DNA of 64,000 nucleotides, from contig NZ_JARGDQ010000010.1 in NCBI RefSeq assembly GCF_029210385.1, positions 1 to 64,000 on the forward strand, written 5' to 3'. Shown here one piece after another: positions 4,599 through 37,791 of this stretch. The DNA comes from Desulfurivibrio dismutans. GTDB lineage: Bacteria > Desulfobacterota > Desulfobulbia > Desulfobulbales > Desulfurivibrionaceae. Made by a program: the position numbers and the translations under genes. Each line of letters starts with the position of its first letter. Position 1 is the stretch's first letter. The notes under the pieces were generated by a model. The model saw only the letters and a list, made by a program, of their open reading frames with translations, was not told the DNA's origin and searched no databases.

Positions 4599-4929
4599 AA
4601 AGATCACTCCTTTTTCAGTAACCGTTCACCAGGAGTATTAAATACTGGTTTAACGGGCCGTAACCGTTCAGCAGTACCGCAGGTTCGGGCAAGCAGACAG
4701 GCGCCGCGTACCCCCTGTACGTAAGCCTGGCTGATCGCCCGAAGATGCGGTGCTGCTGAATGGTTACCCTTTTTCACCAAAGACCGCTTGCAAGGCGGCG
4801 GATTTTTGAATATGAATGGCTCTTCCTTTTTCGTCGACAGTTTTTATATAACCCAAGTCGATCGGAAAATACAGCAACAACCGGCACCACGATTTACCAG
4901 CATAACTTATTTGTCAAGGAGCAGTTGAG
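4599..4929. other. Divergent intergenic region queD / DUF1015 gene
   Basis: A 331-bp gene-free stretch between divergent genes. It contains palindromic element A (4660-4767), a solo copy of the element end (GTAACCGTTCA at about 4619-4629), and an AT-rich inverted repeat around AGTATTAAATACT at about 4634-4646, close to queD. The part nearest the DUF1015 gene is AT-rich, with TATATAA near 4845-4852. Promoters for both directions must lie here, but I see no convincing -35/-10 pair. Confidence 0.5.
4660..4767. repeat. Palindromic intergenic element, copy A (full)
   Basis: 108-bp imperfect palindrome with outer arms GTAACCGTTCAGCAG / CTGCTGAATGGTTAC. Inner arms are CCGCAGGTTCGGGC / GCCCGAAGATGCGG, and the centre is near GTACCCCCTGTAC. 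It is nearly identical to copy B at 6292-6399 in the same orientation. Copies C and D are the reverse complement. Unlike the others it lies in a divergent promoter region rather than at a gene 3' end. It has no ORF, transposase or flanking duplication that I can see. Confidence 0.85.
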
Positions 4930-6291
4930 ATGGCCGTAATCGTCCCCTTTCGCGCCGTGCGCTACAATCCGGAAAAAATCTCCAACATCGAGGAGGTGGT
5001 CAGCCCGCCCTACGATGTGATCGACGCCGGCGGTCAGGCGGCCCTGCTGGAACGCAACCCCTACAACATGATCCGCCTTGATTTGAGCAAAAACGTCAAG
5101 GGCGAGGGCATGACCGAACAGCGTTATGCCGGCGCCGCCGAGCTTTTCCGGCAGTGGCAGCGCCAGGCGGTGTTGCTCAGGGAGGAGCGACCGGCGTTTT
5201 ATATCTACGAGGTGGACTATCGCCGCCCCGACGGCCGTACCCTCACCCGGCGCGGTTTCTTAAGCCGGGTGCAGTTGGCCGAATTTGCCGAAGGGGTGGT
5301 CAAACCCCATGAAAAAACCTTTGCCGGGGTGACCTCGGATCGTTTGCGCCTGCTGGACACCTGCCAGGCCCAGTTTAGCCCCATTTTCTCCCTTTATTCC
5401 GACCCGGCCGGCGAGATCATGCAACTGCTGGCCCGGGGCAGCACCGAACCGCCGCTGTATAGTGTGCCGGACCATAACGGCTGCGAACACCGGCTGCGGC
5501 TGGTCACCGACCCGGCGGTACTGCAGGCGGTGGGGGAAAAATTCCAGGACAAGGCGCTGTACATCGCCGACGGCCACCATCGCTACACCACCGCCCTGCA
5601 GTACCGGGCCCTGGTGCGGGAGCGGCGGGGCCAACTTGATCCGGCCGATGCGGCCAATCACACCATGATGTATCTTTGCGGCATGGAGGATCCGGGTCTG
5701 AGCGTACTGCCCACCCATCGCCTGCTGCGTCTGCCGGGTTACAAAACCAGCACCGATTTGCTGAATGCCCTGCAGGACTATTTCGAGGTAATGGAAATCA
5801 GCAACGGCGGCCGGGAAAGCCTGCTTGATGAAACCCTGGCCCGGATGGCGGAAGGGGAGGGCGGCAACACCTGTTTCGGCTTTTATCACCCCGGCGAGGA
5901 CCGCAGCTTCCTGCTGACCCTGAAGGACGGGGTGATGGACCGGGAGGCGGCCCACCAGCCCCCGGCTCTGCGTGATCTGGATGTGGTGGTGCTTTCCGAC
6001 CTGATCATTGACCGTCTGCCGGATCTGGACAAAAGCCGCTGCGTGCAGGGTGAGCTCATCGATTACTACAGCAACGCCGCCGAGGCCCTGGACGTGGCGG
6101 TCAAGGAAGCCGTCCTCGCCGCCGAAGCCGGCGGCCGGACGGAAGCCACCCCGGTGCTGTTCCTGATGAACCCCACCAAAGTGGACCAGGTCCGCCGGGT
6201 GGCCGACGAAAACCTGGTGATGCCCCACAAGTCCACCTTCTTCTACCCCAAAGTTCTCACCGGCCTGGCCATCAACCCCCTTTCCGACTAG
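4930..6291 (+). CDS. DUF1015 family protein
   Basis: 453 residues, full length for DUF1015 (occasionally annotated SerC-like), a conserved bacterial/archaeal family of unproven function. Family hallmarks seen are the N-terminal VVSPPYDVI segment, KPHEKT near residue 125, the ADGHHRYTTAL box near residue 217, and PTHRLL. ATG 4930 follows AAGGAG with ten bases between. The stop codon abuts palindromic element B. Apparently monocistronic. No function is assigned. Confidence 0.85.
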   Translation: MAVIVPFRAVRYNPEKISNIEEVVSPPYDVIDAGGQAALLERNPYNMIRLDLSKNVKGEGMTEQRYAGAAELFRQWQRQAVLLREERPAFYIYEVDYRRPDGRTLTRRGFLSRVQLAEFAEGVVKPHEKTFAGVTSDRLRLLDTCQAQFSPIFSLYSDPAGEIMQLLARGSTEPPLYSVPDHNGCEHRLRLVTDPAVLQAVGEKFQDKALYIADGHHRYTTALQYRALVRERRGQLDPADAANHTMMYLCGMEDPGLSVLPTHRLLRLPGYKTSTDLLNALQDYFEVMEISNGGRESLLDETLARMAEGEGGNTCFGFYHPGEDRSFLLTLKDGVMDREAAHQPPALRDLDVVVLSDLIIDRLPDLDKSRCVQGELIDYYSNAAEALDVAVKEAVLAAEAGGRTEATPVLFLMNPTKVDQVRRVADENLVMPHKSTFFYPKVLTGLAINPLSD

Positions 6292-7755
<1,464 letters not shown>

Positions 7756-8073
7756 ATGAAAAAAGCGTTAGGTTTGGCGTGTGGACTGCTGCTGCTGTTT
7801 GCTGCCGGTTGTGCTACCAATCAGGTTGATGCCGTTGACGAGGCCCGGTTTAACCAACTGGAAACCAGGGTTGATACACTGGAGAGCCAGATTAAAGGTT
7901 TGACCGGTAACACCGAGTCGATGAAGGCCGAAATGCGGGAGTTGTGGGATATTGCCGAAAAGGCTAGGGAATGTGCCGCCAATTCACGGGCAATTGCCGA
8001 GGATGCGGCCGACAAGGCGGAAAAATGCCTGGAGAGACAGGAAAAAGCCTTTGAGTTGCAGCAGATGAAGTAG
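7756..8073 (+). CDS. Lpp-like (Braun-type) alanine-zipper lipoprotein
   Basis: 105-residue small lipoprotein with lipobox FAAGC (Cys19), then an alpha-helical heptad region (residues 25-100) rich in Ala, Leu and charged residues. The last residue is lysine (QQMK), as in Braun lipoprotein, whose C-terminal Lys is joined to peptidoglycan. Two extra cysteines (Cys73, Cys91) in the coil are unusual for an Lpp. GGAGGTGAAAGTT precedes ATG 7756; the frame opens earlier but without a ribosome site. It faces an L,D-transpeptidase gene, the enzyme class that makes this linkage. Assignment rests on architecture, not close sequence identity. Confidence 0.75.
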   Translation: MKKALGLACGLLLLFAAGCATNQVDAVDEARFNQLETRVDTLESQIKGLTGNTESMKAEMRELWDIAEKARECAANSRAIAEDAADKAEKCLERQEKAFELQQMK

Positions 8074-8099
8074 TCTTAGTTGTTTTTGTGTCAACATTG

Positions 8100-8139
8100 G
8101 GGCGATCTGCCGGTAACATCAGGTAGATCGCCCTTTTTT
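8100..8139 (+). terminator. Rho-independent terminator after lpp-like gene
   Basis: GGGCGATCTGCC (8100-8111) pairs with GGTAGATCGCCC (8122-8133) through a 10-nt loop with one G-T wobble, followed by six T. It sits 26 bp past the lpp-like stop and before the convergent L,D-transpeptidase. Confidence 0.9.
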
Positions 8140-8161
8140 ATGCCGTGGTGTTTTGCCAGTG

Positions 8162-9217
8162 TTATTTTGCCAACCGGCCGATGGGTACGGGAATTCCTCT
8201 GCCCTGCCTGGCGACTTCAGCCACCTTGCCGCTCTCAACCTGGTTCAGCCATCCTTTCTTGCTCAGCATTTGTTCCGCTTCCTGCCAGTAATCCCGCCAG
8301 TTTTTGCCATCGTACCGGTCATGGTGAATTTCAAGGAAAATTTGTTCATCCTGGCGGCCGATTTTCACCGGCTGATGAATGATTTTCATCGGTGTACCGA
8401 TAGCCGCCATGCGGAACAGCACTGGAATATCCTCAGGATAAAGCCGGGCACAGCCCAGGGTTGCTCGTCGGCCGATGGACCAGGGCCGGTTGGTGCCATG
8501 GATAAAATAGCTGCCGCCGGAAAGCTGCAGGGCATAAGCTCCCATGGGGTTGTTGGGGCCGGGAGGTATGATGGCCGGCAAGTGGGGGCGCTGTTCCCGG
8601 ACTGATGGCGGTACCGTCCAACTGGGATCGGTCAACTTCCGGGTGATGGTGAAATCTCCCAGCGGGGTACCGCGGTCGGCGGTGCCGATGCCCACGGGGA
8701 AGGAAATCACCAGCCGGTCATTGGTCAGGGTATAGAAATAATACAACCGCTTTTCCGGGAGATTAAGTACCATGCCATGTTCATATGGTGTTTGCGGCAG
8801 CACCCGGGCGGTGGGCAGCATCACCGGAGCGCCATCCCCCGGCAGGAAAGGGTCCAGTTCCGGGTTGATCCTGGTGACCTCGCGGTAGCCCAGGCCGTGG
8901 TCCCGGGCGATTTCCAGCAGTGATTCGCGGCCTTGTACCCGGTGTTCCCGCATTTGTCCCACCACCGTCCAGCGTTCCGGGTCATAGGACTGGCTGGTAG
9001 CGGCTGAAAGAATGGGCGATGGTAAGTCTTCCCGCATCGCCGTTTCGCCGGCCGCCCCCGTTGATGCTTCGTGATCGCCTGGATCACCTCCCGCTGCTTC
9101 GGATTGAAACCCGTAATCAACTGCGGCTGAGGCGTTCAGCGGCCGGTTGAAGTCGGCACAGGCGACGGATGCGAAGCATAACAATAAACAGCTGATGGTG
9201 TGTGATAAGCGAAGCAT
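8162..9217 (-). CDS. L,D-transpeptidase with LysM-like domain (ErfK/YbiS/YcfS type)
   Basis: 351-residue exported enzyme. An N-terminal signal peptide ends near Ala19-Cys20. A variable linker follows, then a LysM-like segment (about 91-135, HRVQGRESLLEIARDHGL) and the YkuD catalytic domain (about 147-285). His240 (FIHGTN) and catalytic Cys256 in ATLGCARLYPED are present, so it looks active; the usual Ser in SxGC is Thr. Family members cross-link peptidoglycan 3-3 or attach Lpp to it; an attachment role is inferred from the neighbouring lipoprotein. It lies 16 bp after the epimerase gene on the same strand. No strong Shine-Dalgarno is visible at ATG 9217. Confidence 0.9.
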   Translation of the reverse strand: MLRLSHTISCLLLCFASVACADFNRPLNASAAVDYGFQSEAAGGDPGDHEASTGAAGETAMREDLPSPILSAATSQSYDPERWTVVGQMREHRVQGRESLLEIARDHGLGYREVTRINPELDPFLPGDGAPVMLPTARVLPQTPYEHGMVLNLPEKRLYYFYTLTNDRLVISFPVGIGTADRGTPLGDFTITRKLTDPSWTVPPSVREQRPHLPAIIPPGPNNPMGAYALQLSGGSYFIHGTNRPWSIGRRATLGCARLYPEDIPVLFRMAAIGTPMKIIHQPVKIGRQDEQIFLEIHHDRYDGKNWRDYWQEAEQMLSKKGWLNQVESGKVAEVARQGRGIPVPIGRLAK

Positions 9218-9233
9218 TGTTTTTTAACTTTTT

Positions 9234-10142
9234 CTACGATCGGGATAGCAGTTCAGTAAAGGCTTGGTCGATTTCCGGAAACCGGAAGACAAAACCATGT
9301 TGTTGTAAAACCTCCGGGATTACTCTGGTACCGCTCAGCAGAGCCGTGCTCATCTCACCCATCATCAGGCGCAGGATGAATCCCGGCACCGCCAACAGGG
9401 TGGGGCGCTTTAACGCCCGCCCCAGGGCTTTGGTGAACTCGGCGTTGCTGATGACTTGCGGGGCGGCGCAATTGACCGGGCCGGCAATTTCCCGGTGGTG
9501 ACAGAGAAAAGCAAAAATCGCGGTCAGATCATCCAGGTGGATCCAGGGAAAGGGCTGCTGGCCGCTGCCCATTCGGCCGCCCAGGCCCAGGCGAAAAGGG
9601 GGGAGCATTTGATTCAGAGCGCCGCCGACCCGGCCCAGCACCACTGCCAGCCTGGCGATTGCCACCCGATGGCCGTGCTCGGCGGCTTTCATGGCCTCAT
9701 GCTCCCAGGCCGTACATACTTGGGCGAGAAAGTCATTGCCCGGCGGGGCTTTTTCCGTTTTCGGCCGGTCATCGTGGCTGCCGTAGTAGCCGGCGGCGCT
9801 GGTGTTGATCAGGGTCATGGGGGTGGGAGAGCTCTGCATGGCCGCCACCAGATTTCGGGTGGAGAGAACCCGGCTGTCCATGATCTGTTGCTTGACCTTG
9901 GCCGTCCAGCGGGTAAAAACGCTGGCGCCGGTAAGATTGATGATCACCTCGGCGCTTGCCGCTTCTTCCTGCCATTTGCCCGGCCGGGTCGGGTCGCCTG
10001 CCACCACCTTGATCGGCGCCGGCAGGCGGTCTGCCCGGTCCGGGTGACGGACCAGCACCCGCAACTGGTGATTTTCCTGCAACAGGCGAGGAATCAGGGC
10101 GCTGCCGACAAAGCCGGTGGCGCCGGCTAAAAAGATTTTCAT
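9234..10142 (-). CDS. TIGR01777-family NAD(P)-dependent epimerase (YfcH-like)
   Basis: 302-residue extended short-chain dehydrogenase/reductase-like protein. GATGFVGSAL at residues 7-16 is the dinucleotide loop. NLTGASVFTRWT and the SRVLSTRNLV helix are signatures of the TIGR01777/SulA-like group. The catalytic region reads NTSAAGYYG, with YYG in place of the classic YxxxK. The C-terminal DUF1731-like tail (LLAVPGFILRLMMGEMSTALLSGTRVIPEVL) is complete. Physiological substrate unknown. Probably first gene of an operon with the L,D-transpeptidase. Confidence 0.9.
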   Translation of the reverse strand: MKIFLAGATGFVGSALIPRLLQENHQLRVLVRHPDRADRLPAPIKVVAGDPTRPGKWQEEAASAEVIINLTGASVFTRWTAKVKQQIMDSRVLSTRNLVAAMQSSPTPMTLINTSAAGYYGSHDDRPKTEKAPPGNDFLAQVCTAWEHEAMKAAEHGHRVAIARLAVVLGRVGGALNQMLPPFRLGLGGRMGSGQQPFPWIHLDDLTAIFAFLCHHREIAGPVNCAAPQVISNAEFTKALGRALKRPTLLAVPGFILRLMMGEMSTALLSGTRVIPEVLQQHGFVFRFPEIDQAFTELLSRS

Positions 10143-10217
10143 GGTGCAACCTCCGGAAAAACGGTCATGCCGGTAATGGGTGTTGCTGGCCGCCCGCTGG
10201 CGGTTTTACGTCTTAGC

Positions 10218-10247
10218 ATTCTAGCGGCACCAAGTTCCGACGGTCAA
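10218..10247 (-). promoter_or_regulatory. Sigma-70 type promoter for the epimerase/L,D-transpeptidase operon
   Basis: On the minus strand TTGACC (10242-10247), 18-bp spacer, TAGAAT (10218-10223). The predicted start lies about 70 bases upstream of the epimerase ATG. Confidence 0.6.
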
Positions 10248-10275
10248 GCACAGGGGAGTGGCAAGGGGGAAAAAG

Positions 10276-10306
10276 AAAGGGTTACGCGGGGGCGCAACCC
10301 TTTTTT
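10276..10306 (-). terminator. Bidirectional terminator hairpin beyond tRNA-Gln
   Basis: AAAGGGTT-A-CGC / GCG-C-AACCCTTT around a GGGG loop. There is a T run on the plus side and CTTTCTTTTT on the minus side, four bases past the CCA end of tRNA-Gln. Confidence 0.75.
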
Positions 10307-10309
10307 ATT

Positions 10310-10383
10310 TGGCTGGGGGATAGGGATTCGAACCCCAACAGGCAGAGTCAGAGTCTGCAGTCCTACCATTAGACGATCCCCCA
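10310..10383 (-). tRNA. tRNA-Gln (CUG anticodon)
   Basis: 74 nt including an encoded CCA. The acceptor TGGGGGA / TCCCCCA pairs fully, including the U1-A72 pair typical of tRNA-Gln. The anticodon stem GCAGA/TCTGC encloses loop CTCTGAC, giving anticodon CTG. The T arm TGGGG-TTCGAAT-CCCTA carries one G-T pair. The discriminator is G. It reads CAG codons. It has its own promoter (10406-10434) and a terminator immediately after. Confidence 0.97.
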
Positions 10384-10405
10384 ATATCGCGAACGGGAAA
10401 CGGTA

Positions 10406-10434
10406 CTTATAAAAAAACTGGCCTGGTCTGTCAA
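10406..10434 (-). promoter_or_regulatory. Promoter of tRNA-Gln
   Basis: Minus-strand TTGACA (10429-10434), 17-bp spacer, TATAAG (10406-10411). This is a near-consensus sigma-70 promoter ending about 22 bases before the mature tRNA 5' end. Confidence 0.85.
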
Positions 10435-10480
10435 GAGTAAAACCGGTCTGCGGGCACTTCCTCGCGGTTTGCAACGTGTT

Positions 10481-12637
10481 TTACTTCTTGATTTCGTTGG
10501 TCGACTTAGTCGGTGGCATGATCTTTTGCAACTCTTCCAGGAGTTTGTCGATCTGGTAAGGCTTTTGAATAAAACCGGCCAGCTCGCCACCGTGGAAGCG
10601 CTGGACGATTTCCTGGGCACTGTAACCACTGGCCAGCAGAACCGGAATATCCGGCTGGATTTTACGCAGTTCCTGGAAGGCCTCCGCGCCGTCCATCACC
10701 GGCATGTTCATGTCCAGCACCACGCAGTCGATCCGTCCCGGCTGCTGCTTGAAAATGTCCACCGCCTCTCGGCCGTCGCCGGCGGTCAGCACGTCAAAGC
10801 CCTTGGCACGGAGGATGGCGGCGCCGGTATCACGTACCATCTCTTCATCATCAACCAGCAGGATGGTACCGCTGCCCCGCCAGTCCGGGTCGATGCGCGT
10901 CTCTGCCGTCACCGCTGAAGACGCTTGCTCGGCATCTTTGGCTATGGGGAACAGGACTTTCATCACCGTGCCCCGGCCCGGTTCGCTGTATACCCGGATA
11001 GCGCCGTGGTGGCCGCGGATAATGCCCAGGACGGCCGCCAGCCCCAGCCCGCGGCCGGTGAATTTGGTGGTGAAAAAGGGATCGAAAATGCGGGCGGCGG
11101 TTTCAGCATCCATGCCGCAACCGTTATCTTCCACTTCCAGGAAGGCATATTGTCCCGGCGGCAGTTCCTCGTTGAAGTTCTGCCGGAAATATTCTCGGTC
11201 GCAGGTCACGCTTCCGGTGCGGACGGTTACCTCCCCTTCGCAACCTTCAAGAGCCTCCGAGGCGTTGGTAATCAGGTTCATGATCACCTGCCGGATCTGG
11301 GTGGCATCGCCGGTGACGGGCAGGGGCGAAGATGCCAGCTGATAGTTGATTTTGGCCTTCTTGTCCACCGAGACGGCCAGCATTTCGGCCAGCTCCCGGG
11401 TTACCTCCGACAGGTCAAGCTGTTGGGAGACCAGTTGGCCCTTGCCGGAACAGGCCAGCATCTGCCGGCAAAGTTCGCCGGCCCGCTGGGAGGCTTTGAT
11501 GATGTCGGCCAACTGTTTTTGGGCCGGGGCGTTCTGGGGTAGTTCTTGTTTGGCCAGTTCCGCATTGCCGACGATGGGCACCAGCAGATTGTTGAAGTCA
11601 TGGGCGATTCCGCCGGCCAGCACGCCGAGGCTTTCCAGTTTCTGGACATGCAGGATCTTTCTTTCCATTTCCTGTTTTTCCTTTTCCGCCGCCATCCGCT
11701 CGGATATCTCCCGGCGCAACTGTTCGGTCATGGCGGTGCGCTGTTGTAACTGCTCCTGCATGGAGTCGTGATAACGATGCAGCTTGGCGGCCAACTGATT
11801 GTAGCTCTGCGCCAGCGACCCGATTTCATCATTACCGGCGTCCGCCAAGGTGGGCAGTTGCACGCTGTCGTCTTTTTGCCGGCAGACCTTTTCAAAATTG
11901 GCGGAGATAATGGCCAGCCGGCTGCCGATCAGCTTTCTGACCAGCACAAAAACGGCCCCCAGCAGCAAAAACAGGGAAACCGCAATGATGACCAGATCGC
12001 CGATGATGGCGGCCCACATTTTGGCCCGGATCTCATCAATGGGAATCCCCACGGTATCGGTGGCCACCACCTGGCCCAAAGGCCAGTTGAAGCCGGTTTC
12101 CATTCCGTAACGGGCTACCAGGGAGGGAGGAGCATCCGCCGGGGCGCCATGGCATTTGAGACAATCTTCCTCGGTCCGGCGGGGCTTGAAGTGGGCCAGA
12201 TACTGCGTATCGTTTAACCGCACGGTTCCCTGCCATGATTCGGCCCCGGGATTAAGGTTGAAATAATCAATTATCGCCAGTTCTTCCGGGGTGGCCCGGT
12301 TCAGAGGATTGCGGGGGTCTTCGGCGGAAAATTTGAGAATAAGTTCGGGAAAATGGTAATTGACGTCGGCAAAAATGGAGCGGGAAACATAGGAGGTGGA
12401 CATGGTTTCGGGGATGAATTCCTCCCGGCCCACCAGTTGGTACATTACCGGTCTGATTTTTTCATCCACATACCGGCGGATGGAGAGATTGAACTGCAGC
12501 GCCAGAGCCGCCTGCTGGTGCACGCTGTCATCGATGAAGCGCTTAGCCAAAGAATGCGTTCGCTGCAGCAGAAAGGCGCTGCAGACAAGGGTGAAAAGCG
12601 CAATAATCAGAAAAAGCTTGGTGCCGATGCTCTTCAT
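10481..12637 (-). CDS. Heme-type (Tll0287-like/DUF3365) hybrid sensor histidine kinase
   Basis: 718 residues. TM1 is about 8-25. The periplasmic Tll0287-like sensor domain has a c-type heme motif CLKCH (Cys159, Cys162, His163). TM2 is about 208-235, followed by HAMP. HisKA has GGIAHDFNNLL near residue 345 (phosphoacceptor His), and the HATPase domain carries N, G1 (DNGCGM) and F boxes. A C-terminal receiver has phospho-Asp in VVLDMNMPVMDG. The heme motif suggests redox, NO or O2 sensing, which is inference. Last gene of the minus-strand run starting at the ODP-like gene; a 131-bp gap with a hairpin separates it from the chemoreceptor. Output partner not identified. Confidence 0.88.
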   Translation of the reverse strand: MKSIGTKLFLIIALFTLVCSAFLLQRTHSLAKRFIDDSVHQQAALALQFNLSIRRYVDEKIRPVMYQLVGREEFIPETMSTSYVSRSIFADVNYHFPELILKFSAEDPRNPLNRATPEELAIIDYFNLNPGAESWQGTVRLNDTQYLAHFKPRRTEEDCLKCHGAPADAPPSLVARYGMETGFNWPLGQVVATDTVGIPIDEIRAKMWAAIIGDLVIIAVSLFLLLGAVFVLVRKLIGSRLAIISANFEKVCRQKDDSVQLPTLADAGNDEIGSLAQSYNQLAAKLHRYHDSMQEQLQQRTAMTEQLRREISERMAAEKEKQEMERKILHVQKLESLGVLAGGIAHDFNNLLVPIVGNAELAKQELPQNAPAQKQLADIIKASQRAGELCRQMLACSGKGQLVSQQLDLSEVTRELAEMLAVSVDKKAKINYQLASSPLPVTGDATQIRQVIMNLITNASEALEGCEGEVTVRTGSVTCDREYFRQNFNEELPPGQYAFLEVEDNGCGMDAETAARIFDPFFTTKFTGRGLGLAAVLGIIRGHHGAIRVYSEPGRGTVMKVLFPIAKDAEQASSAVTAETRIDPDWRGSGTILLVDDEEMVRDTGAAILRAKGFDVLTAGDGREAVDIFKQQPGRIDCVVLDMNMPVMDGAEAFQELRKIQPDIPVLLASGYSAQEIVQRFHGGELAGFIQKPYQIDKLLEELQKIMPPTKSTNEIKK

Positions 12638-31788: not shown

Positions 31789-32334
31789 ATGATGGCTGTA
31801 CTGGCCGGTCGTCAGACCGGAAAAACAAAATTCATCGGTGGCCGTCGACTGTTGTTGTTGCTGGTGGTTGGCTCACTGCTTTTTTGGACTGCCTGTGGTA
31901 AAAGTGAACGGCGCTTGCAATTGGGTGACCCGGCGCCGGATTTTACCGCTACGGATCAGTACGGTAATACCATCCGGCTGGCCGATCTGGCCGGCGGGCC
32001 GGTGGTGCTGCGTTTCTGGTCGGTGGATTGCAAGTACTGTCGGGCCGATACACCGATTTTCAATGACTACTACCGGCGCTACCAGGACCAGGGGCTGACG
32101 GTTATTTATATCAGCCTCAACGAAGATCAGGAGATGGTCCGGCGTTTTATTGCCGATTTGGAGATCGAGTTTCCGGTGATCATCGACCAGGGGGGCCGGA
32201 TTGCCGAAAAATACCGGATCAAGTTGGATCCCCAGGCGGTGTTCATTGATCCCGATCACAAGCTGGCCACCGCCGTGCTGGGGGGCGTTGGAGAAGAGGA
32301 AATGGCAAGACTGCTGGGAGGTTATCTGCAATGA
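31789..32334 (+). CDS. TlpA/ResA-like thioredoxin-fold (lipo)protein
   Basis: 181 residues. An N-terminal hydrophobic segment ends in WTACG, a poor lipobox, so the protein is either lipidated or membrane-anchored. The thioredoxin domain (about 45-175) has active-site CKYC in WSVDCKYCRADTP and the GDPAPDFTATDQYG opening of the AhpC/TSA-TlpA group. It probably acts as a periplasmic thiol reductant or metallochaperone helper. ATG 31789 follows GGAG at eight bases. Its stop overlaps nosL by four bases (ATGA), so the two are coupled. Confidence 0.88.
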   Translation: MMAVLAGRQTGKTKFIGGRRLLLLLVVGSLLFWTACGKSERRLQLGDPAPDFTATDQYGNTIRLADLAGGPVVLRFWSVDCKYCRADTPIFNDYYRRYQDQGLTVIYISLNEDQEMVRRFIADLEIEFPVIIDQGGRIAEKYRIKLDPQAVFIDPDHKLATAVLGGVGEEEMARLLGGYLQ

Positions 32335-32879
32335 ACAGACACATGATTTTTTCGGCGGTGGCCGGCCTGGTGCTGGCATTGCTGTTACTGTTGCCGGCCG
32401 GCGGCCTGGCCGGCGAGGAAGAGGCTGCAACCGGCCGGGGAGCGGAGTTACCGCCGCCGGTGGAAAACCTCAGTCAGCGGGAGAAATGCCCGGTCTGCGG
32501 CATGTTTGTCGCCCGTTACCCGGAATGGATCAGTCAGTTGCACTTGGACGATGGCAAAGCCCATCATTTTGACGGCATGAAGGATCTGCTGGCCTACTAC
32601 TTTAATCCGGAAAAATTCGGTGGCCGGGCCGATGCCGTAGTTAAGGCGATCTGGGCCAAGGATTATTACACCCTGCAGTGGGTGGAGGCCAGTCAGGCCT
32701 GGTTTGTGGTGGGCAGTCGGGTGCATGGCCCCATGGGGCATGAATTTATTCCCCTGGCCTCGCGGGAAGCCGCCGAGGCCTTTATGCGGGATCACCAGGG
32801 CGAGGAGATTATGACCTTTGACGAGATCACCGCCGAGCGGGTCCAGAACATGCGCACCGGCCACCGTATGGGCCGGTAA
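32331..32879 (+). CDS. nosL: NosL-family copper-binding lipoprotein/chaperone
   Basis: 182 residues with signal peptide (cleavage near GGLAGEE). The NosL domain carries CPVCGMFVARYP (the CxxCGM copper motif) near 53-64, DDGKAHHFDGMKD and the C-terminal HGPMGHEFIPLASREAAEAF. NosL delivers copper to NosZ in denitrifiers, but nosZ and nosDFY are absent here. Neighbours are a TlpA-like protein and an FtsX-type ABC transporter, so a different client is likely. Its TAA stop lies inside palindromic element C. Confidence 0.92.
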   Translation: MNRHMIFSAVAGLVLALLLLLPAGGLAGEEEAATGRGAELPPPVENLSQREKCPVCGMFVARYPEWISQLHLDDGKAHHFDGMKDLLAYYFNPEKFGGRADAVVKAIWAKDYYTLQWVEASQAWFVVGSRVHGPMGHEFIPLASREAAEAFMRDHQGEEIMTFDEITAERVQNMRTGHRMGR

Positions 32880-32982
32880 ACGCCCGGCAGCACCGCATCT
32901 TGCGGCGATCGAGGCGGCTTGCGTACTTGGGTACGCGGTGCCGCCTCGCTTGCCGCAACCTGCGGCACTGCCGTGCGTTTAC
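32876..32982. repeat. Palindromic intergenic element, copy C (full)
   Basis: 107-bp palindrome beginning GTAAACGCCCGGCAG and ending CTGCCGTGCGTTTAC, with inner arms CGCATCTTGCGGC / GCCGCAACCTGCGG and a GTAC-N-GTAC centre. It is in reverse orientation to copies A and B. Its first bases supply the TAA stop of nosL (32877-32879). Confidence 0.85.
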
Positions 32983-33107
32983 CTTTATCTTGGGGGGCTG
33001 GGCAACGTCAAATTTGCTTGGCGTCTGGACGGTTGCCGCGGCCCCCACCCCCCCCTGGCCACAACCAAAATTTTACTTTTTTCAGTTCGTTTCATGAAGG
33101 AGGTTCC

Positions 33108-33404
33108 ATGCGTCCTGTTGCCGGGATTGGATTGGTTTTGCTGGTTTTGCTGTTGCTGGTCGGGGGGCTGTTGGGTCATGGACGGGAGCTGGCGGCCCGG
33201 CAGGCGGCGGTTGGGCCGCGCCTGGCGATTCTGGTGGCCGGTATGGGGCTTACCGACCTTTGTTTGTCCACCGAGGCCCGTTATACCCGGCATCCGGCGG
33301 TCAGTGATCCCGTTGCCCCTTTTATGAGTCATCCCGGGGCCATCGAACATTTTCCCACCGGTTCCTTCTGGGCCCCGCCTCCGGCTTACCGGCGTCAACC
33401 ATGA
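33108..33404 (+). CDS. Small single-pass membrane/exported protein
   Basis: 98 residues with a strong ribosome site (AAGGAGG before ATG 33108). One hydrophobic N-terminal helix (about 6-24) is followed by a short periplasmic tail with one cysteine (LTDLCLST). No family recognised. The stop overlaps the permease start by four bases (ATGA), so it belongs to the transporter operon and may be an accessory or substrate-presenting subunit; that is inference. Confidence 0.7.
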   Translation: MRPVAGIGLVLLVLLLLVGGLLGHGRELAARQAAVGPRLAILVAGMGLTDLCLSTEARYTRHPAVSDPVAPFMSHPGAIEHFPTGSFWAPPPAYRRQP

Positions 33405-34678
33405 AATGTTTTCTTGCCAAACAGTTCAACCTGCTGGATTTCGCCTTCTCTTCGCTGTGGCGGCGGCGTCTTAAAAACGGGGCGGTGCTGCTGGTCTTTG
33501 CCGGGGTAATCTTTCTGGTGGCCTCTTTTCATCTGGCTACTACGGCGCTGACCGCTACCGCCGAGCGGCTGCTGGCGTCGGCGCCGGATATCGTCATTCA
33601 AAATATGGCCGCTGGCCGGCAGGAGTCGGTGCCGCTGGCTTACGAGCAGGAACTGGGCGGGCTGTTCGGTATCAAAAAAGTGGTCCCCCGCATCTGGGGC
33701 TATTATTTCGACGAGATCAGGGGGGCCAATTTCACCGTGCTGGGGGTGGACCCGGCCCGGATGCCCCTGGGGGAGCATTTGGGACAAACTTTGGCGGTTG
33801 GGGTGTTCCCGGGCGCCGGGGTGAGCGGGGAGGGGGCGGCCGCCGGTAATGCGCAAGTAGGTACGGCAACTGGAGATGGTGCAGCCGAGCCGGTCGACCA
33901 GGTTGCCGCCGGGGTGGCGCCGGCGGTTCTGGGCAGCCTGGTCAGTGCGTCCTTGGAAGTCGGAAAGGGTGACTATTTCTCCCTTTTTCGCCCCGATCTG
34001 TCGTTGAAAACCTTTGCCGTCAGCGGCCTGTTCCGGGCCGATGGCGACCTGCTCAGCGGTGATTTGATCGCCCTGCATCTTGATGAGGCCCGTGATCTCT
34101 TTCAAATCCCCTCGCATCTGGCCACCGATCTTTGCGTTTATGTCTACAACCCGGCGGAGATCAACAATATGGCCCGGCGCATCGCCGAGGCCCTGCCCGA
34201 CACCCGGGTGCTGACCCGGGAGCAGATTCAGCGCACCTATCAGGCGGTGTTCGGCTGGCGCAGCGGTTTTGCCGCCGTGTTGCTGCTCGCCGCCCTGGCC
34301 GCCTTTGTCATCCTGGCCTGGGACAAGGCCTCCGGATTGTCGCCGGAAGAGCGGCGGGAGGTGGCAATTTTAAAAATCGTCGGCTGGGAAACTCCGGACG
34401 TGTTGGCCTTGCGCTGCTGGGAGGCCCTGCTGGTGGCCGGTTTTGCCTTCCTGCTGGGGGTTATCGGCGCCTGGATACACGTGGTCTATTTCGATGCCGG
34501 GCTTTTCCGGCCGGTGATGGTGGGATGGTCGGTGATTCACCCCGGCTTTGCCCTGGTGCCTCGGATTGAGGCCCAAGACGTGCTGCTGCTCTTCAGCCTC
34601 ACCGTGCTGCCCTATCTGGCCGCCACCGTGATTCCCACCTGGCGTTGCGCGTCAGTACCGGCAGAAGACGCCTTATGA
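33401..34678 (+). CDS. FtsX/MacB-type ABC transporter permease
   Basis: 425 residues. TM1 is about 25-50, a large periplasmic MacB-PCD-like domain spans about 55-285, and the C-terminal FtsX domain has three helices (about 290-310, 345-370, 395-415), the LolC/MacB topology. PEERREVAILKIVGWETPDVLALRCWEALL is the FtsX coupling region. A Gly/Ala-rich insert of about 35 residues sits in the periplasmic domain. Such transporters move lipoproteins, peptides or macrolides, or transmit force across the membrane, rather than importing solutes. The ATPase partner lies 145 bp downstream, beyond palindromic element D. Confidence 0.88.
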   Translation: MKCFLAKQFNLLDFAFSSLWRRRLKNGAVLLVFAGVIFLVASFHLATTALTATAERLLASAPDIVIQNMAAGRQESVPLAYEQELGGLFGIKKVVPRIWGYYFDEIRGANFTVLGVDPARMPLGEHLGQTLAVGVFPGAGVSGEGAAAGNAQVGTATGDGAAEPVDQVAAGVAPAVLGSLVSASLEVGKGDYFSLFRPDLSLKTFAVSGLFRADGDLLSGDLIALHLDEARDLFQIPSHLATDLCVYVYNPAEINNMARRIAEALPDTRVLTREQIQRTYQAVFGWRSGFAAVLLLAALAAFVILAWDKASGLSPEERREVAILKIVGWETPDVLALRCWEALLVAGFAFLLGVIGAWIHVVYFDAGLFRPVMVGWSVIHPGFALVPRIEAQDVLLLFSLTVLPYLAATVIPTWRCASVPAEDAL

Positions 34679-34681
34679 TGC

Positions 34682-34789
34682 GTAATTGTCCAGCAGCACC
34701 GCAGATTGCGGCGATCGGCCCGGCTTGCGTACCCGTGGTACGCGGCGCCGGTCTGCTTGCCGCAATCTGCGGCACTGCTGAACGATTAC
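34682..34789. repeat. Palindromic intergenic element, copy D (full)
   Basis: 108-bp palindrome GTAATTGTCCAGCAG ... CTGCTGAACGATTAC with perfect inner arms CCGCAGATTGCGGC / GCCGCAATCTGCGG and a GTACC-N-GGTAC core. It lies between the permease and ATPase genes, in the same orientation as C and reversed relative to A and B. Inside a transcript it would be a very stable stem. Confidence 0.87.
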
Positions 34790-34823
34790 GGAGCGAAGAT
34801 GAAACTTGGTTGAAAGATTTTCT

Positions 34824-35636
34824 ATGATGCTGGTTGAACTGGAGCGGGTTAATAAGATTTATAACAAGGGCAAGGCCAACGAGGTTTGGGCCCTGCGGGA
34901 TGCCGACCTGCGGGTTGGGGAGGGCGAGATGGTGTGTTTGCGGGGGCCCAGCGGTTCGGGTAAGAGCACCCTGCTGGCCATCATCGGCTGTGTCTTTCCG
35001 CCCAGCAGCGGCCGGGCGGCCATTGCCAGGCGGCAACTGGCCCGGCTGCCGGATCGTTTTCTCACCATCCATCGCCGGCAAACCATCGGCTTTATCTTTC
35101 AGCGTTTCAACCTTCTGCCGGCCTTGAGCGTGCGGGACAATATCACCTTGCCGTTGCTCCCCCTGGGGGTTTCCCCCAGTGAATGCCGCCGGCGCGCCGG
35201 GGTGCTGCTGGAGCGCCTGGGGATTGCCCACCGGGAGAATTTTCCCGTGCGCATGCTTTCCGGCGGCGAGCAGCAGCGAGTGGCCATCGCCCGGGCCCTG
35301 ATCAACGACCAGCCCCTGGTACTGGCCGATGAACCTACGGCCCACCTGGACAGTGCCTTGAGCCGGGAGTTCATGGCCATCATGGCCGACCTCAAGGCCG
35401 CCGGCAAGACCATTATCGTTACCTCCCACGATCCGCTGGTGGCCGAACATCCGGTGATCGACCGGGTGGTGGAGGTCCATGATGGGCGAGTGTTGCCGGC
35501 AGCCGCCGGCCCGCCGGCCGGTGACTCTTCGGTAACTGATCACGGGTGCCACGGTGTAAGCGGTCACGGGGTGCCGCAAGATGGGGTGCCCGGTGATCGC
35601 TTGCACTCCCCGTCTTCGGTGGGAGGTGGCGGCTGA
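34824..35636 (+). CDS. MacB/LolD-type ABC transporter ATPase with His/Gly-rich tail
   Basis: 270 residues. Walker A GPSGSGKST, Q-loop FIFQRFNLLP, signature LSGGEQQRVAIARAL, Walker B LVLADEPTAHLD and H-loop TSHDP are all intact. A tail of about 45 residues after the ATPase domain is low-complexity and includes DHGCHGVSGHGV, with several His and one Cys, which might bind metal; that is inference. ATG 34824 is preferred over TTG 34806, though its ribosome site is weak. The TGA stop shares its last base with the ATG of the next membrane protein gene. Confidence 0.9.
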   Translation: MMLVELERVNKIYNKGKANEVWALRDADLRVGEGEMVCLRGPSGSGKSTLLAIIGCVFPPSSGRAAIARRQLARLPDRFLTIHRRQTIGFIFQRFNLLPALSVRDNITLPLLPLGVSPSECRRRAGVLLERLGIAHRENFPVRMLSGGEQQRVAIARALINDQPLVLADEPTAHLDSALSREFMAIMADLKAAGKTIIVTSHDPLVAEHPVIDRVVEVHDGRVLPAAAGPPAGDSSVTDHGCHGVSGHGVPQDGVPGDRLHSPSSVGGGG

Positions 35637-36742
35637 TGCTGCTCAACACCTGGTCGCTGGCGTTAAGCCTGGGCAGCCTGCTGGTGGTTTTTCTGCTGAC
35701 GGTGGCGGCCATCAGCGCAGTGCGGGTGCTGCGCCACTGGAACCCGGCCAGCGATGACGAACGACAGATCAGCCTGGAGAGTGAAATCTGGCTCTCTTCC
35801 ACCCTGGTGGCCTACGCTCTGATCATTCAGATCATCAGTCTGGTGCTGCTGGCGCTGGCCGCCGACGAGTTTGCCGGGGTGATCACCGGCGCCATGTGCG
35901 CCACCGGCACCCTGCAGGTCAACGAATTCGGCCTGCCATCCCTGCTGGTCAAACTGGCCGGGGTCTTTTTTTACGGCTTCTGGCTGGTGCTTCATCGCCT
36001 GGATGTAAGTTCCGAGCATTATCCCCTGGTCAAGGTCAAATGCTGGTACCTGCTGGCGCTGCTGCCGCTGGTGGCCGTCGATATAACTCTGCAGTCCATG
36101 TATCTGCTCCATATCCATCCCGATGTCATTGTTTCCTGTTGCGCCGTGGTGTTCAGCGCCGGGGCCGGAGACGGCCAGTTTTTTGTGGAACTGGCCGGTG
36201 ACCGGCTGGTGCCCTGGTTCTATGGCGCATTGGTGGTGCTGGTCCTGCTGGGCGGCGTTCTGGCCTGGCGTTTGCGGCCTCCGGTCGATCATTGGCAGGG
36301 GGCGGCGACCATACCGCCCCCTGCGCCGTTTCCCGGTTTTCGTTCCTTTTCGCTGTTGGCAGCCCTTTATGGCCTGGCCTGGCTGATTTTTTTGCCCCTG
36401 GCCCTGCTGACCATTACCACCGTGATTTCGTCGTACATTTATGCCATGCCTTTCCATAATTGTCCCTTCTGTATCCTCAAACAGGAGTACGCTTATATCG
36501 GTTTCGCCATTTACGGCACCCTGCTGGCCGCCGCTTTTTTTGCCCTGTCCGCGCCTCTGGCCGGGTTGCTGATTGGTCGCTTTTCCGGCTCCGGCACCTC
36601 GGCCAGGGAGGACCGCGAGGGCTTGATTGTGCCGCGTTATCAAAGCCTGGCGGTACGGTGGTCGCTGTTTTTGCTGCTGCTGTTTGCTTTTTTCTCCTCT
36701 TTTCATTACCTGCGCTATCTTGTCATGGGTGGTGAGGTTTGA
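35636..36742 (+). CDS. Polytopic membrane protein with CPFC and cysteine-pair motifs, unknown function
   Basis: 368 residues with about eight hydrophobic helices. Not assigned to a family. Conserved-looking features are MCATGTLQVNEFGLPSL after helix 2, VSCCAVVF near 165, and NCPFCILKQEYAY (CxxC) near 280, followed by another helix. A CxxC at the membrane face plus further cysteines recalls VKOR-like thiol oxidoreductases or metal-handling membrane proteins, but topology and order do not prove either. It is translationally coupled (one-base overlap) to the ATPase, and thus part of the TlpA-NosL-ABC cluster. Confidence 0.8.
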   Translation: MLLNTWSLALSLGSLLVVFLLTVAAISAVRVLRHWNPASDDERQISLESEIWLSSTLVAYALIIQIISLVLLALAADEFAGVITGAMCATGTLQVNEFGLPSLLVKLAGVFFYGFWLVLHRLDVSSEHYPLVKVKCWYLLALLPLVAVDITLQSMYLLHIHPDVIVSCCAVVFSAGAGDGQFFVELAGDRLVPWFYGALVVLVLLGGVLAWRLRPPVDHWQGAATIPPPAPFPGFRSFSLLAALYGLAWLIFLPLALLTITTVISSYIYAMPFHNCPFCILKQEYAYIGFAIYGTLLAAAFFALSAPLAGLLIGRFSGSGTSAREDREGLIVPRYQSLAVRWSLFLLLLFAFFSSFHYLRYLVMGGEV

Positions 36743-36831: not shown

Positions 36832-37791
36832 ATGACCGATTCCAAACTTCATGTCCTGATACTGGCGGCGGGCAAAGGCACCCGGATGCGCTCAACCCGG
36901 GCCAAAGTGCTCCATGAGATTTTTTTTGCCCCGATGATCGTCCACGTCCTGGAGGCGGTGGCCGCCCTTGAACCGGCCTCCACCTCGGTGGTGGTGGGCC
37001 ATCAGCGGCGGGAGGTGATGGCGGCCCTGGCCGGTCGGGACCTTGAGTTTGTGGTCCAGGAGCAGCAGAACGGCACCGCCCACGCGGTGCTGGCCGCTGC
37101 CCCGGAATTGCGGGAGCGTGCCGGCACCCTGCTGATTCTCTGCGGCGACACTCCCCTGGTAACCCCGCAAACCCTGCAGGATATGCTGGCAGCCCACCGG
37201 CAGCGGGGCGACAAGCTGTCGGTGATGACCACCCGGATAGCGGATCCTTTTGGTTATGGCCGGATTGTCTGCGACCGGGCCGGCCGCCTGGAGCGCATTG
37301 TCGAAGAAAAAGACGCTACCGCCGAACAGCGGCTGATTAAGGAGATCAACGCCGGGATTTACTGCGCGGAGATCGACTTTCTCTTTCCGGCCCTGGCCCG
37401 GGTGGGCAACGACAACCGCCAGGGGGAGATGTACCTTACCGATATTGTGGAAATCGCCGTCCGCGAAGGCCTGCGGGCCCACAGCTACTGCTGTGCCGAT
37501 CCCGATGAACTGCTGGGGGTCAACTCCCGGGTGGAACTGGCCCGGGCCCACGCTCATTTGCAAAGACGCCGCAACCACGAACTGATGCTCGCCGGGGTAA
37601 CCATGTATCAGCCGGAAACCATTCAGGTTGCTCCCGGGGTCAGCATTGGCCGAGACAGTGTTATCCATCCCCACGTTACCATCAGCGGTTCCAGCCGCAT
37701 CGGGGTTGGTTGTACCATCAACTCCTTTAATTTGTTGCACAACTGCGATTTGCCCAACGGCGCCGAGGTGGCCCCATTTCACCGTGAGTAA
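36832..37791 (+). CDS. Short GlmU-like nucleotidyltransferase
   Basis: 319 residues. The N-terminal pyrophosphorylase domain has LAAGKGTRMRSTRAKVLH, QNGTAHAV, CGDTPL and NAGIYC, so uridylyltransferase activity is plausible. Only about three left-handed beta-helix turns follow (PGVSIGRDSVIHPHVTISGSSRIGVG), ending at NGAEVAPFHRE. Bifunctional GlmU is about 455 residues; the acetyltransferase active-site region is absent. It could be a genuine short paralogue or a C-terminally truncated GlmU. Weak ribosome site; 89 bp after the membrane protein gene. Confidence 0.82.
   Translation: MTDSKLHVLILAAGKGTRMRSTRAKVLHEIFFAPMIVHVLEAVAALEPASTSVVVGHQRREVMAALAGRDLEFVVQEQQNGTAHAVLAAAPELRERAGTLLILCGDTPLVTPQTLQDMLAAHRQRGDKLSVMTTRIADPFGYGRIVCDRAGRLERIVEEKDATAEQRLIKEINAGIYCAEIDFLFPALARVGNDNRQGEMYLTDIVEIAVREGLRAHSYCCADPDELLGVNSRVELARAHAHLQRRRNHELMLAGVTMYQPETIQVAPGVSIGRDSVIHPHVTISGSSRIGVGCTINSFNLLHNCDLPNGAEVAPFHRE

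Follow-up and report, generated by a model that had tools for sequence, protein, structure and literature searches.

A recurring NosL-ABC-CPFC gene block as a candidate copper-centre maturation machine

The window, the full 64,000-nucleotide stretch of Desulfurivibrio dismutans DNA that we analysed, contains a cluster of six plus-strand genes running in one direction (positions 31789-36742; Table 1). The gene order, direction and coordinates, originally read from the letters and open reading frames, were borne out by the ORFs and by Pfam/NCBIfam profiles. The original prediction also described most of the genes as overlapping. This holds narrowly: overlaps are seen at three of the five junctions (TlpA/NosL, Small/permease and ATPase/CPFC), but the NosL/Small and permease/ATPase junctions are gapped by ~228 and ~148 nt, each gap being filled by a palindromic repeat. 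The repeat has 44-nt arms that are 82-84% complementary, and its core motif occurs three times in the window (0.01 expected); it looks like a REP/MITE-type element within the operon. Downstream of the cluster, a GlmU gene encodes only 319 amino acids, aligned up to position ~312 of 459, and seems to be without the C-terminal part of the acetyltransferase domain.

Table 1. Features of the cluster and its surroundings in the window.
Feature	Position	Strand	Remarks
TlpA/ResA-like thioredoxin (TlpA)	31789-32334	+	PF00578, 7.5e-28; CKYC active site; lipoprotein-like signal
NosL-family protein (NosL)	32331-32879	+	PF05573, 1.2e-34; CPVCGM and GPMG motifs kept
Small membrane protein (Small)	33108-33404	+	98 aa; one N-terminal TM; good ribosome-binding site
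FtsX/LolC-type (type VII) ABC permease, single subunit	33401-34678	+	Sub-threshold FtsX/LolCE-like profile match
ABC ATPase, MacB/FtsE/LolD class	34827-35636	+	PF00005, 5.5e-31
CPFC, 8-TM orphan polytopic protein	35636-36742	+	CPFC at residues 276-279
Palindromic repeat, ~110 bp	32875-32983		
Palindromic repeat, ~110 bp	34681-34790		
Related repeat core	4704-4727		
Related repeat core	6336-6359		
GlmU	36832-37791		319 aa

The NosL protein scores 119.9 bits against PF05573 (cut-off 24). Its residues C53, C56, M58 and M135 are invariant in 27 sequences, and an alignment places the CxxCGM motif and the GxMG region in common with the solved NosL proteins 7og7 and 7osf. Inspection of the signal sequence revealed no lipobox cysteine, which leaves the family assignment unaffected, since the assignment is profile-based. 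NosL of Paracoccus has an attomolar affinity for Cu(I) and is required for full CuZ (PMC6530538). The same genome holds a second, divergent NosL-like gene away from the cluster (G000:C23:196153-196503; L167 9031-9825), with the motif CPYCGM...CSLRC and a Tat-like signal.

The permease had been labelled FtsX/MacB. The FtsX-type assignment stands, but the fold is LolC/E-like rather than that of MacB proper: the best sequence match is LolC (2e-9), the best Foldseek match is LolE (E 1.2e-16, compared with 7e-13 for MacB), and the closest solved relatives are LolE, LolC and LolF. This resemblance, together with the lipoprotein-like TlpA protein, raises the possibility that a LolCDE-like unit releases or places lipoproteins of its own cluster or of a client. 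We consider such sorting very unlikely: the permease reaches only 48.6 bits against the LolCE equivalog model TIGR02212 (cut-off 362), a single permease takes the place of the LolC and LolE pair, in this block as in the large majority of related loci, the cluster's NosL has no lipobox, and CPFC, Small and the copper-related neighbours would be left unexplained. The permeases also formed a clade of their own against other FtsX/MacB-type permeases of the same loci, including those beside DUF2318 proteins (84 versus 23 sequences, split support 0.965), although members had been pre-sorted by profile score (gap 58 to 132 bits), so this test is not fully independent. Among the permeases of these loci, the expectation that the permease would not group with unrelated lipoprotein exporters was upheld.

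The two remaining membrane proteins fall in no known protein family. Small carries a conserved tail, TDLCLSTEARYTRHP...EHFPTGS, and invariant residues D50, A57, Y59, R61, F82 and P83; it has no useful Pfam model and no sequence relative in the PDB. Across an alignment of 36 CPFC proteins, M87, C88, C168, C169, H274 and C276 are invariant, forming the motifs GAMC88, SC168C169 and PxH274xC276PF in three loops. An AlphaFold model (pLDDT 89.5, pTM 0.89) has eight long helices and places these motifs in loops 2-3, 4-5 and 6-7, all on the same side. The opposite loops are richer in Lys and Arg (summed means of 9.5, versus 2.9 in the three cysteine loops), and the motif loops are therefore predicted to face the periplasm. 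Foldseek returned no match for CPFC at E<=0.001, a second structure comparison gave only four-helix-bundle similarity, and a sequence search of the PDB found no relative. Membership in a Pfam or NCBIfam family was rejected, as the 36 members gave chance-level matches only.

Invariant cysteines in three putatively periplasmic loops, with TlpA immediately upstream in group A loci, are what one would expect of a thiol redox relay, in which CPFC would be a membrane disulfide reductase or oxidase partner of TlpA, the ABC unit would supply reductant or a heterodisulfide for cysteine maturation, and copper would be incidental. We regard this explanation as unlikely. About half of the loci are without TlpA, and the constant partner is NosL. 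Moreover, the second cysteine of the CxxC motif (C279) is kept in 25 of the 36 CPFC proteins and is Asp in the other 11, and the invariant Met and His beside the cysteines are better suited to Cu(I).

To assess how widely the cluster recurs, we followed CPFC across genomes. It is present in 98 of 194 genomes of the order (37 of 62 genera), in 46 of 297 genomes of the phylum, and at at least 575 places in GTDB genomes, its carriers including Desulfobacterota, Nitrospirota, Methylococcales, Sedimenticola, Fibrobacteres and Geobacteraceae. We read ~150 CPFC loci, which yielded 109 distinct loci with enough upstream DNA for a count of gene content. Simple ORF calling, which undercounts, recovered the permease in 103 of these, the ATPase in 102, Small in 90, NosL in 89 and TlpA in 55; permease, ATPase, Small and NosL occurred together in 74. 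The arrangement is far above chance expectation. The genes had been expected to co-occur elsewhere, and they do so across phyla. As a unit, however, the proposed six-gene set needs trimming: the conserved unit is NosL-Small-permease-ATPase-CPFC, with TlpA an optional member found in about half of the loci.

The absence of nosZ from this DNA, which the original prediction had taken as a sign that NosL serves another client, extends well beyond the window. NosZ (TIGR04246) is absent from the window's whole genome, and no match exceeded the cut-off in the 194 genomes of the order; the cluster itself contains no NosD, NosF or NosY. The 27 sub-cut-off NosZ matches in the order are short and cover the C-terminal cupredoxin part only, and hence are not NosZ. 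Full-length NosZ was found in two genomes of other families (G242 and G415), and there the block lies at the 3' end of a complete, colinear nos operon, in the order cytochrome b, cytochrome c, nosZ, nosD, nosF, nosL, nosY, TlpA, NosLs, Small, permease, ATPase, CPFC. The idea of another client therefore stands for the NosZ-free order but not for these two families, and the implied separation from the nos system was too strict. Its presence within complete nosZ operons of two further families makes the block a partner to the nos machinery and not a wholly separate system.

Other copper genes also gather around the block. Among 40 CPFC-bearing genomes from outside the order, 29 have NosL within 10 kb of CPFC (against 0.35 random hits expected) and eight have Sco within that distance (0.27 expected); Cu-oxidase_2 is found within 10 kb in five (0.42 expected) and within 15 kb in nine (0.62 expected), in statistics that ignore genome relatedness and operon structure. 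We confirmed Sco, multicopper oxidase, CusA and CusB domains beside the block. Together with the nosZ operons, the NosL, Sco and Cu-oxidase_2 neighbours make the suggested copper link of the cluster a strong one. Two further features of these neighbourhoods were recorded. Fusions of cytochrome c with a type-6 periplasmic-binding domain turn up repeatedly by Sco and the block (L208 3080-4717, L228 8439-10031, L053 9620-11353), and in the Nitrospirae isolate MnB_6 (L123) the block is followed by a 1987-aa secreted protein (4741-10701) and, soon after, a multicopper oxidase.

A copper-associated block could also serve export or detoxification, with the ABC unit and CPFC ridding the membrane or periplasm of copper (or of a Cu-thiol adduct) and NosL acting as a scavenger beside CusBA. 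CusA-type RND genes indeed lie directly beside the block in several loci (L207, L219, L220, L045, L048, L051 and L059), with CusB in one locus, and these neighbours fit export as well as they fit loading; resistance clusters also contain Sco and multicopper oxidases. Yet CusA is absent from most loci, the core has no conserved outer-membrane or adaptor partner, the substrates of FtsX/LolC-type units lie in the periplasm or membrane, and the block is found inside nosZ operons, which favours loading over export. Export thus appears rather improbable, though it heads our ranking of the rival explanations, ahead of the thiol relay, lipoprotein sorting and a Fet-like role in iron uptake.

The last of these derives from the similar composition of Campylobacter jejuni FetABCDEF, which combines an 8-TM cysteine protein, FtsX-type permeases, an ATPase and two thioredoxins (PMC10783030, PMC6083913). 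The block, too, has a TlpA-like thioredoxin in the window's cluster (PF00578), and in some Nitrospirae (L131, L136, L137 and L140) the gene right after CPFC encodes a separate FtrD-like DUF2318 protein; in most of these four loci a carbon-nitrogen hydrolase-like gene comes after this stand-alone protein. An accessory role in iron uptake nevertheless seems highly improbable to us. FetA carries DUF2318/YHS, and the Fet system has two permeases and the partners FetM/P19, whereas the constant partner of the block is NosL and not P19/FTR1. DUF2318 (PF10080) has no match in the window's genome and occurs beside CPFC in some Nitrospirae only. CPFC as the membrane part of FetA/FtrD was likewise rejected: in a comparison of low power, hhalign gave no match with an alignment of three FtrD-domain proteins of the phylum.

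The block also resembles, and departs from, the better-known ABC systems. Like the Nos apparatus (NosD-NosF-NosY-NosL), it places a NosL Cu(I) chaperone beside a membrane ABC unit, would deliver copper in the periplasm, and is colinear with nosZDFLY in two families. In contrast, NosY is an ABC-2 type permease while the block's permease is of the FtsX/LolC type, the Nos apparatus has no known counterpart to CPFC or Small, and the block mostly occurs without NosZ. With LolCDE/LolF and MacB, type VII ABC systems working by mechanotransmission, it shares the permease fold and the ATPase class, but neither has the fixed partners NosL, Small and CPFC; LolCDE has two permeases, whereas the block has a separate single one far below the LolCE cut-off, and MacAB has the MacA adaptor and a permease-ATPase fusion, whereas the block has separate genes, no conserved adaptor and no MacA/TolC partner. 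The block thus lacks at least one tested defining feature of each of Nos, Lol, Mac and Fet, and it is best filed as a NosL-linked variant of copper-centre maturation rather than as a member of any of them. It is a real, recurring, copper-associated machine and apparently an undescribed one; a literature search, with most subscription journals outside its reach, found no paper describing it.

Within the order, the commonest neighbour of the block is F1, a secreted, His-rich and haem-binding protein of ~390 aa that carries one CxxCH haem site and six non-haem histidines, all invariant. F1 adjoins an FtsX permease and an ATPase of its own, in 37 loci such as L078 4583-5761. CPFC accompanies it in 66 of the 71 genomes with F1 (Fisher p 4e-21, a value that takes no account of relatedness), and of 53 canonical F1 genes, 36 are found no more than 12 kb from CPFC. 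A more distant F1 is encoded, together with permease and ATPase, on a different contig of the window's genome (L248 8416-9540; G000:C28:276415-277539). The FtsX permease beside it (L248 9829-10941, G000:C28) seems to have a frame change in its first half, from a frameshift or an assembly error. In one genome (G098), TlpA abuts F1, apart from the block. F1 has no NCBIfam match, and the term "propeller-like" reflects a single weak Pfam match. Homology to NosZ was rejected, hhalign giving a probability of 2% over one short stretch ending in TPDG. F1 is perhaps a new metalloprotein and a possible client of the block in the order. A bolder version holds that, in sulfur bacteria of the Desulfobulbales type, F1 receives a copper or copper-sulfur centre from the NosL-ABC-CPFC machine and would be a NosZ-like extracytoplasmic redox enzyme of organisms that have no NosZ; the block would then be a general engine for assembling copper clusters, one that N2O reduction shares. 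We hold this to be doubtful.

Taken as a whole, the evidence leads us to propose that NosL, Small, the permease, the ATPase and CPFC, joined in some loci by TlpA, make up an ATP-driven periplasmic machine for supplying extracytoplasmic cuproproteins with copper, a reading to which we assign a rough probability of 0.55. We infer that CPFC binds copper, in which direction it is transferred, and that the machine loads copper as against exporting or detoxifying it. NosL would pass Cu(I) to, or take it from, the thiol/Met/His cluster of CPFC, whose thiols TlpA would keep reduced. As in LolCDE or MacB, the permease and ATPase could couple ATP hydrolysis in the cytoplasm to motions of periplasmic domains, with the tail of Small as a putative docking piece, and copper or a copper-sulfur precursor would then be handed to the apo-protein. 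Clients may vary, being NosZ in some lineages, probably multicopper oxidases elsewhere, and perhaps F1 in the order. The client in the window's genome is a guess, since NosZ and PF07731 multicopper oxidases are both absent there.

The assembly of copper centres outside the cytoplasm, above all of the CuZ centre of N2O reductase, is only partly known. The block adds to it two unnamed protein families, CPFC and Small, and a further type of NosL-associated ABC engine. The two lineages that carry the block inside a nos operon offer ready genetic tests, and the block suggests a role for NosL in the numerous anaerobes that carry nosL without nosZ.
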